The notes beneath the pieces were generated by a model. It did not search any database and had not been told where the DNA came from. It saw nothing but the letters and a program-made list of their open reading frames with translations. Positions 34,129 through 35,775 of a stretch of 64,000 nucleotides of DNA are shown piece after piece. The stretch covers positions 2,356,001 to 2,420,000 of the forward strand of contig JABTTW010000001.1 in the NCBI GenBank assembly GCA_015075745.1, read 5' to 3'. Both the position numbers and the translations under genes were made by a program. The DNA comes from Planctomycetia bacterium. Its GTDB lineage: Bacteria; Planctomycetota; Phycisphaerae; UBA1845; UTPLA1. Position 1 is the stretch's first letter, and every line of letters starts with the position of its first letter.

Positions 34129-34767
34129 GTGGACGTGGGTGATTCACCGGAAACATGGCACGGCCTGGTTGAGGGATTGGATGGGCTCGGCGCGGACGCC
34201 TGGCTGGGGGCCGGCTGCGCGATTCTCATTTCCTCCATTGTCGCCGCGATGACCTTGCTGCAATTCCAAGCGCTCAAGCAATGCCGTCGACGGCTGGACG
34301 AACTGGAAGAGCGAGACGCGATGCGCGCCGCCCGCGACACCGGGCCGACGATTCAGGAGTTCTGCCGACAGATCATGTGCGCACTGGGCACAGAGACGCC
34401 GGAGGCGGTGTCCGACCGGCTTTCCGAGGCCGACCCCGCGCGGTTTGCCCGTGTTCTCGCGGTCTATACCCGGGCCCAGCGAAGGCGGCTTGTGACGCTT
34501 TATCAGCAGGCCGAAAACCTGCGCGAAGCCCTGAGCGCGGAGGAGTCCCGTCACACCGAAGAGCGGAGCGACAAAGTTCGCGATCTGGACCTGCGGATCG
34601 AGCGTGCGGCACGTCAAACCGCGGAATTGGATGCGGCGTGCGGTCGCGCGACCAGGCTGCTGGACCAATTCGAAATGAGCCCCACCGCAGTCGCGAAGAA
34701 TAAGAAGCCAGGGGTGGCCGGCAGCCTCGCCCCGGCCCCGTCCGGATGCGCCGCCACGACCGACTAG
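34129..34767 (+). CDS. Membrane-anchored coiled-coil hypothetical protein
   Basis: 212 residues, not recognised. One membrane segment near the N-terminus (LGAGCAILISSIVAAMTLL), then a strongly charged helical region with heptad-like spacing (EESRHTEERSDKVRDLDLRI) predicted to form coiled coil, and a low-complexity Pro/Ala tail. The start is a GTG, without a convincing Shine-Dalgarno sequence. It may anchor an assembly at the inner membrane; there is no evidence for a specific role. It ends 138 bases before the candidate selenoprotein gene. Confidence 0.55.
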   Translation: MDVGDSPETWHGLVEGLDGLGADAWLGAGCAILISSIVAAMTLLQFQALKQCRRRLDELEERDAMRAARDTGPTIQEFCRQIMCALGTETPEAVSDRLSEADPARFARVLAVYTRAQRRRLVTLYQQAENLREALSAEESRHTEERSDKVRDLDLRIERAARQTAELDAACGRATRLLDQFEMSPTAVAKNKKPGVAGSLAPAPSGCAATTD

Positions 34768-34824: not shown

Positions 34825-34905
34825 CCGTGCATGGGCCATGCTTCGTCCGAAGCCTGCCGAAGCGCCGCCCCACTTTGAGGCCGTCATCGAAAGGAGTATG
34901 GGCGT

Positions 34906-35775
34906 ATGCGAAGACACCTAGCAATGCTCTCGATCCTCGCCGCCGGGCTGACCGCACCGGTTATGGCGGGCGTGCAGATCGGCGACAAATCGCCGGCGGT
35001 CTCCGCCGGGTCGTGGTACAACCTGCCCAAGGGAATCAAGAGCCTGACTCCCGCCCACCTCAAGGGGCAGATCGTCATGGTCGAATTCTGGGCCACATGG
35101 TGAGGGCCTTGCCGTTCAGGCATTCCGCATCTGGTTCAGATGCAAAAGAAATTCGAAGACAAGGGTGTCATACTGGTCGCCCTTTCATATGAGGCCTCAA
35201 GCGCCGTAGCGCCTTATGTCTCTCAGCACAAGATCCCTTACATCGTCGGCAGCGACGCAAAGGCCACGCGCGACGCCTTTGGCATTCAGGGATACCCCAC
35301 TGCTTTTCTCGTGGATCCGGACGGCAAGATTGCATGGATCGGGCATCCGATGGAGGCTGACAAGGCCATCGAAGATCTGCTCAAGAAGAAGAAGCCGCGC
35401 GGAGCGGGACTGCTGGCCGAAGAGGCGGGCAAACTGGCCCTCGCCAAGGCGGGCAAGCTCTATAAGCAGAAGAAATACGCCAAGGCCCTGAAGGCGTACC
35501 AGAAGATTGTCAAGGATTATAAGGGTACAAAGGTCGCCAAGACCGCGAAGGCCAAGGTCAAGTCGATCAAGGGCAGCACCGCCGTCATGGCGAGCATTCG
35601 CGCCGAAGAAGCGGATCGGAATGCGAGTCGCTGGCTGGACATGGCCCGCGTATTAGCCAAGAACGGCGCGGAAAACGACGCCATGCGTTACTACGAAAAG
35701 ATCGTCTCGAAATACCCGGAATCCGAGCACGCCGACACGGCCCGCCGGGAAATGGAAAAGCTCCGCGGTAGTTGA
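34906..35775 (+). CDS. TlpA-like thioredoxin with in-frame UGA (candidate selenocysteine) and TPR tail
   Basis: Exported thiol-disulfide protein. ATG with AAGGAG nine bases upstream; signal peptide MRRHLAMLSILAAGLTAPVMA. The thioredoxin domain reads VMVEFWATW, then TGA (35101-35103, residue 66), then GPCRSGIP. The same frame continues without break for 224 codons, through the cis-proline motif GIQGYPTAFLVDPDG (Pro131) to a C-terminal TPR region. The TGA occupies exactly the first Cys of the expected WCGPC, giving WUGPC if read as selenocysteine, with Cys69 as resolving residue. A hairpin with a GGU loop lies 30 bases downstream. Other genes here use TGA as stop, so general reassignment to Trp is unlikely. 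A nonsense mutation or sequencing error (TGC/TGT to TGA) remains possible. Confidence 0.75.
35127..35143 (+). promoter_or_regulatory. Candidate bacterial SECIS hairpin
   Basis: GCATCT and AGATGC form a perfect 6-bp stem around the loop GGTTC; a closing G-C pair could extend it to 7 bp with a three-base GTT loop. The loop begins with GG and contains GGU, as in known bacterial SECIS elements. Its first G is the 30th base after the UGA, inside the range of about 16-37 bases reported for bacterial SECIS loops. The hairpin lies inside the coding region, as bacterial SECIS elements must. Confidence 0.65.

Follow-up and report, generated by a model that had tools for sequence, protein, structure and literature searches.

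Selenoproteins that combine a TlpA-like thioredoxin domain with selenocysteine (Sec) in a UxxC motif have already been catalogued. The "Trx-like 1" group (COG0526, UxxC) was among the most abundant in a survey of the GOS marine metagenome (PMC2398784, Table 2), and a 2026 catalogue contains both UxxC thiol-disulfide isomerase-like selenoproteins of the cd02966 type and UGC-TlpA selenoproteins (PMC13188914). Planctomycetes are mentioned in the text of neither paper. Sec use in planctomycetes has already been reported (PMC4807772), and the candidates of that study may include the family described here. The gene at 34906–35775 of the window, by which we mean the whole 64,000-nt stretch of DNA that was analyzed, almost certainly encodes a further UxxC TlpA-like selenoprotein.

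The reading frame at 34906–35775 translates as MRRHLAMLSILAAGLTAPVMAG...VEFWATW-TGA-GPCRSGIPHLVQMQ...GYPTAFLVDPDGK... and closes with a terminal TGA (35773–35775). Its internal TGA, codon 66, occupies the exact position of the attacking Cys in WCGPC and is followed by 223 sense codons. A sequence-only reading of this DNA had placed the TGA at the nucleophilic Cys, noted that the frame stays open far beyond it, and predicted that a gene caller would split the gene; translation agrees with it throughout, and under table 11 the gene is broken into ORFs of 65 and 211 aa. Mechanical filters left about 30 in-frame TGAs across the window, of which only the one at 35101–35103 lies within a coherent homologous protein. 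When the mechanical search covered the window together with the surroundings of selAB and selC, about 45 places were returned, and a recognizable protein was found only at 35101–35103. The features of the locus are as follows.

34892..34896, + strand: Shine-Dalgarno-like AGGAG, 9 nt 5' of the ATG (sequence, by eye)
34906..35775, + strand: predicted Sec-containing TlpA/ResA-like thioredoxin with a TPR-like tail, 289 aa with UGA as Sec (translation, Pfam, structure matches)
34906..34968, + strand: signal-peptide-like N-terminus, MRRHLAMLSILAAGLTAPVMA (by eye; hydrophobic leader in UGA homologues)
35101..35103, + strand: UGA codon, predicted Sec, residue 66, N-terminal position of UGPC (sequence; same column in homologues)
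35110..35112, + strand: TGC, resolving Cys, residue 69 (sequence; invariant in homologues)
35127..35143, + strand: predicted bacterial SECIS hairpin GCATCT-GGTTC-AGATGC, loop 35133–35137, −7.8 kcal/mol (register conservation, compensatory change, bSECIS constraints)
35296..35298, + strand: cis-proline codon of the thioredoxin fold, GYPT, residue 131 (sequence; invariant in homologues)
35431..35766, + strand: helical TPR-like tail (Pfam TPR_6/TPR_14/YfiO; model helices with pLDDT of about 87–96)

The encoded protein matched the Pfam families AhpC-TSA (5.5e-18), Redoxin (1.5e-15), and TPR_6 (2.1e-7), as well as Thioredoxin_8. A TlpA-like or ResA-like thioredoxin is recognized by an AhpC-TSA/Redoxin/Thioredoxin_8 domain, an active-site motif, and the cis-Pro, and this protein has all of them. 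Its closest solved structures were DsbE/ResA by sequence and ResA/DsbE by fold, the latter from a moderate model. This AlphaFold model was built from three sequences, had a mean pLDDT of 71.5 that fell below 50 at residues 64–70 (the active site), and was used solely as support for the domain plan. A PHROG search returned no match. The N-terminus, read by eye, resembles a signal peptide, from which we infer a periplasmic or otherwise exported location.

The sequence-only reading had proposed a search for selA, selB, selC, and selD; all four are present in the genome, an assembly of 5.0 Mb in 4 contigs that is 97% complete. SelA (533 bits) adjoins SelB, which was found as a 659-aa frame (296 bits) plus a separate C-terminal match. 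The tRNA-Sec scored 68.9 bits, over the cut-off, and was also called by ARAGORN as tRNA-SeC with anticodon tca (TCA). SelD (356 bits) has an in-frame UGA of its own, in the motif CAG-U-AGK. SelA, SelB, SelD, and tRNA-Sec, the set by which a bacterial selenoprotein system is recognized, are therefore found together in this genome. The same reading had called the genome planctomycete-like, and its closest named relatives, Planctomycetota bacterium PLA2 and a Phycisphaerales MAG, agree with this.

The selD gene (L048, G000:C2:592115-593038) also has a hairpin after its in-frame UGA and is a second predicted selenoprotein of the genome. A genome search with a covariance model of the UGA plus hairpin gave a strong match only at the 34906–35775 gene (81.6 bits; all others 18 or less), so the model revealed no further selenoproteins. 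The formate dehydrogenase-like genes of this genome had no in-frame stop and scored under the family cut-off. One DsbD_TM protein, an 860-aa frame, is present.

Conservation across relatives supports the reading of UGA-66 as Sec, which we regard as almost certain. This codon is UGA in eight family copies, from G000 (the window's genome), G001, G008 (two copies), G009, G010, G005, and the more distant G004. Relatives at 65% identity (same genus) and at about 50% thus keep the UGA rather than an intact Cys, which was the check that the sequence-only reading had proposed. TGC or TGT occupies the Sec codon in G003, G006, G014, and one G012 copy, with TGC in the first three. The UGA therefore aligns with Sec or Cys, and the frame is conserved on both of its sides, with WATWUGPC, the residues spanning the TGA, being the most conserved of the family. 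Between G000 and G001, dN was well under dS on either side of the UGA (dN/dS values of 0.21/1.87 before it and 0.28/1.31 after it, with dS near saturation). Across the family, selA was present in 16 of 17 genomes, the exception being 75% complete.

The gene order around the G001 copy is conserved as well, comprising a DinB-like gene, a RidA-like gene, the counterpart of the window's 34129–34767 gene, and a response regulator. The gene at 34129–34767 lies upstream of the Sec gene on the same strand and encodes a small coiled-coil-like protein; it is 65% identical over 66 aa to the protein at the same place in G001, and a Pfam search assigned it to no clear family. In G012, two homologues lie in tandem (L057:4878-5990 and L057:3652-4617), one with CGPC and the other with SSRAS. 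The SSRAS copy has lost both redox residues and kept the fold and tail.

The sequence-only reading had described a hairpin with its stem beginning at the 24th base past the UGA, with loop GGTTC and its first loop G at base 30; this geometry proved correct. The bSECIS model calls for a loop of 3–9 nt, a stem of 4–16 bp, a G in the first two loop positions, a distance of 16–37 nt from the UGA, and an MFE of −7.5 kcal/mol or lower (PMC13188914). The window copy falls within all of these limits (loop GGTTC/GTT, base 30–31, stem of 6–7 bp, −7.8 kcal/mol). On its own, the window hairpin is weak evidence and within reach of chance, as 35 of 400 synonymous reshuffles (9%) reached its stability. It becomes convincing because its register is conserved in the family and the hairpin is lost where the codon is Cys. 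Seven of the eight family UGA copies share a GCAYCT-[5-nt loop]-AGRTGC hairpin at the same distance downstream of the UGA, starting at base 24, with the loops GGTTC, GGTCG, or CGTCG. The Cys homologues in G003, G006, and G014 encode a near-identical protein in this region, yet their GCAYCT/AGRTGC hairpin cannot form. A compensatory change from T-A to C-G occurs in G008a and G004; covariation rests on this single pair, since the other five of the six pairs are invariant in the family. The remaining UGA copy, in G005 (L058:110-1027), has a hairpin that the other family copies do not share, with AGTT at base 35, and comes from the 75% complete genome with no selA match.

We then searched 392 genomes of the phylum with a profile built from the UGA proteins, and most of the places listed with a "1 TGA" flag were retrieved and inspected. 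Among the matches listed, 74 distinct copies, family copies included, had UGA at the first position of UGPC, with UPPC, UAPC, and UGYC as rare variants of the motif. By our own reading of these matches, the UGA copies outside family f1 came from 62 genomes, 59 of them with selA. With the window's genome added, selA was present in 60 of 63 UGA genomes vs 182 of the 329 others (about 55%; p = 7e-11, relatedness uncorrected). Four UGA genomes had no selA match, three from the scan of the phylum and one from the family; all are drafts of 75–91% completeness. Some "TGA" flags were rejected as Sec sites: those in G044 and G093 mark a stop at the domain end, and G274:C91, G104:C177, and G351 have Cys at the active site. 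The same arrangement recurs in many planctomycetes, so standard gene callers are likely to split the gene wherever it occurs in the phylum.

A model-type hairpin, defined in this count as −5 kcal/mol or better, followed 46 of the 74 UGA copies vs 6 of 44 Cys copies (p = 1.6e-7, relatedness uncorrected), and 28 UGA copies lacked one that fits the model. The register differed by clade: GTT at base 19 (f37; GTT loops at this base in L130, L134, and L143), GGT at base 22 (f71; GGT loops at this base in L101, L110, L123, L145, and L147), GG/GT at base 30–31 (f1 and f69), and AGTT at base 35. These differences give the impression that the SECIS was rebuilt at various sites along the coding sequence. 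In f30-type copies, which carry KWATWUGPC (L086, L089, L093, L106, L108, L109, L114, L119, L120, and L122) and whose genomes have selA, no hairpin fitted the bacterial SECIS model, and the most stable ones had their loop at base 39–41. When mapped onto a tree of 122 copies, the Sec/Cys state requires 11 changes, and well-supported branches force at least 8 of them. It is thus possible, though we rate the combined picture as somewhat less probable than even, that UGPC TlpA proteins are among the commonest selenoproteins of Planctomycetota, that they switched between Sec and Cys at least eight times, that their SECIS was rebuilt with loops at base 18–19, 22, 30–31, or 35, and that the large f30 clade reads its UGA with an out-of-model hairpin.

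Several other explanations of the TGA were weighed against Sec insertion. If the TGA were a true stop, the locus would hold two separate ORFs, a 65-aa stub and a 211-aa protein, and the downstream frame does open at an ATG (35140). That start, however, lies inside the thioredoxin fold, so the product would lack the signal peptide, the first strand, and the active site, and stopping and restarting would not preserve WATWUGPC across the TGA as the best conserved stretch of the family; we consider this very unlikely. A nonsense mutation or an assembly error, with the codon really being TGC or TGT or the gene a fresh pseudogene, draws on the TGC found in some syntenic or close homologues (G003, G006, and G014). 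This is more improbable still, as independent genomes at both levels of identity share the identical TGA, purifying selection persists past it, and the phylum matches listed include 74 distinct copies with UGA at the same codon.

A reassignment of UGA in this genome (e.g. to Trp, Gly, or Cys) would also place an in-frame TGA inside a conserved gene. It is the least probable of the explanations, since the 34906–35775 gene itself terminates with TGA, the SelB/SelC system is present, and the homologous codon is that of Cys, not Trp or Gly. Cys insertion by Sec systems charged with thiophosphate is known in principle, and the tRNA-Sec machinery might insert Cys rather than Sec at this UGA, at least under low selenium; a Cys enzyme would still function, as the many Cys homologues illustrate. 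Nothing points to Cys as the usual product, though, and the SelD of this genome is a predicted Sec enzyme as well, so the selenophosphate supply is probably normal. We give this version about as small a chance as a true stop.

Taking together the UGA, the machinery genes, the conserved hairpin, the thioredoxin-type domain, and the conservation of the whole frame, the best explanation, with a probability of about 95%, is a selenoprotein gene in which SelB and the hairpin would decode UGA-66 to give an exported TlpA/ResA-like U-G-P-C oxidoreductase with a TPR-like tail. The Sec-containing TlpA of the sequence-only reading is supported by the machinery, the UGA of relatives, dN below dS, and a bSECIS-fitting hairpin that is broken in Cys homologues. 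Mechanistically, SelB bound to the hairpin 24–40 nt past UGA-66 would deliver Sec-tRNA(Sec) to the codon. In the exported enzyme, the Sec66 selenolate may attack a disulfide or another oxidized substrate, and Cys69 would then resolve the mixed selenenylsulfide. Re-reduction could come from a membrane donor of the DsbD/CcdA type, a role that the one DsbD_TM protein of the genome may serve. The TPR tail probably holds the enzyme to a partner or substrate.

This gene is a clear and testable addition to the prokaryotic selenoproteome, a putatively exported redox enzyme that standard annotation splits. Its interest beyond the known UxxC kind lies in its breadth in Planctomycetota, the repeated Sec/Cys switches, the several SECIS registers, and the one large UGA clade without a model-type hairpin. 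The family is common in Planctomycetota and has both Sec and Cys forms among closely related members, which makes it a natural series for asking what selenium contributes to an enzyme. The same series suits the question of how a SECIS within coding sequence is gained, lost, or moved, and the clade without a model-type hairpin could probe the reach of the bacterial SECIS rules.

Among described systems, ResA, DsbE, and TlpA (PDB 2f9s, 3gl3, and 1jfu; NF002854 and TIGR00385) share the thioredoxin fold and the spacing of their two-Cys active site with the window protein and are exported, as it is predicted to be; unlike it, they begin the active-site motif with Cys and lack the TPR tail. The window protein stayed below the cut-offs of the curated ResA/DsbE/TlpA models, scoring 79.2 bits against the curated cut-off of 170 for the ResA equivalog NF002854. 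NF041054 (NCBIfam, ResA-like WAxxUGC), the nearest curated selenoprotein model, is likewise a ResA-like thioredoxin selenoprotein and was matched at 9.6e-13; the 48.1 bits obtained lie below its cut-off of 300, and the window motif is UGPC, not UGC. The Cys homologues within the family (G003, G006, and G014) share the whole domain plan, C-terminal tail included, and in G014 the response-regulator gene still adjoins as it does in the window; they differ from the window copy in having TGC at the codon and no hairpin. Further close counterparts are the cd02966 UxxC selenoproteins (MGB1650493.1, compared by domain and motif descriptions only) and "Trx-like 1." They resemble the window protein in the TlpA-like thioredoxin domain, in Sec as the first residue of UxxC, and in the existence of Cys-containing homologues, whereas a TPR-like tail and membership of a planctomycete clade with a hairpin of its own set the window protein apart.
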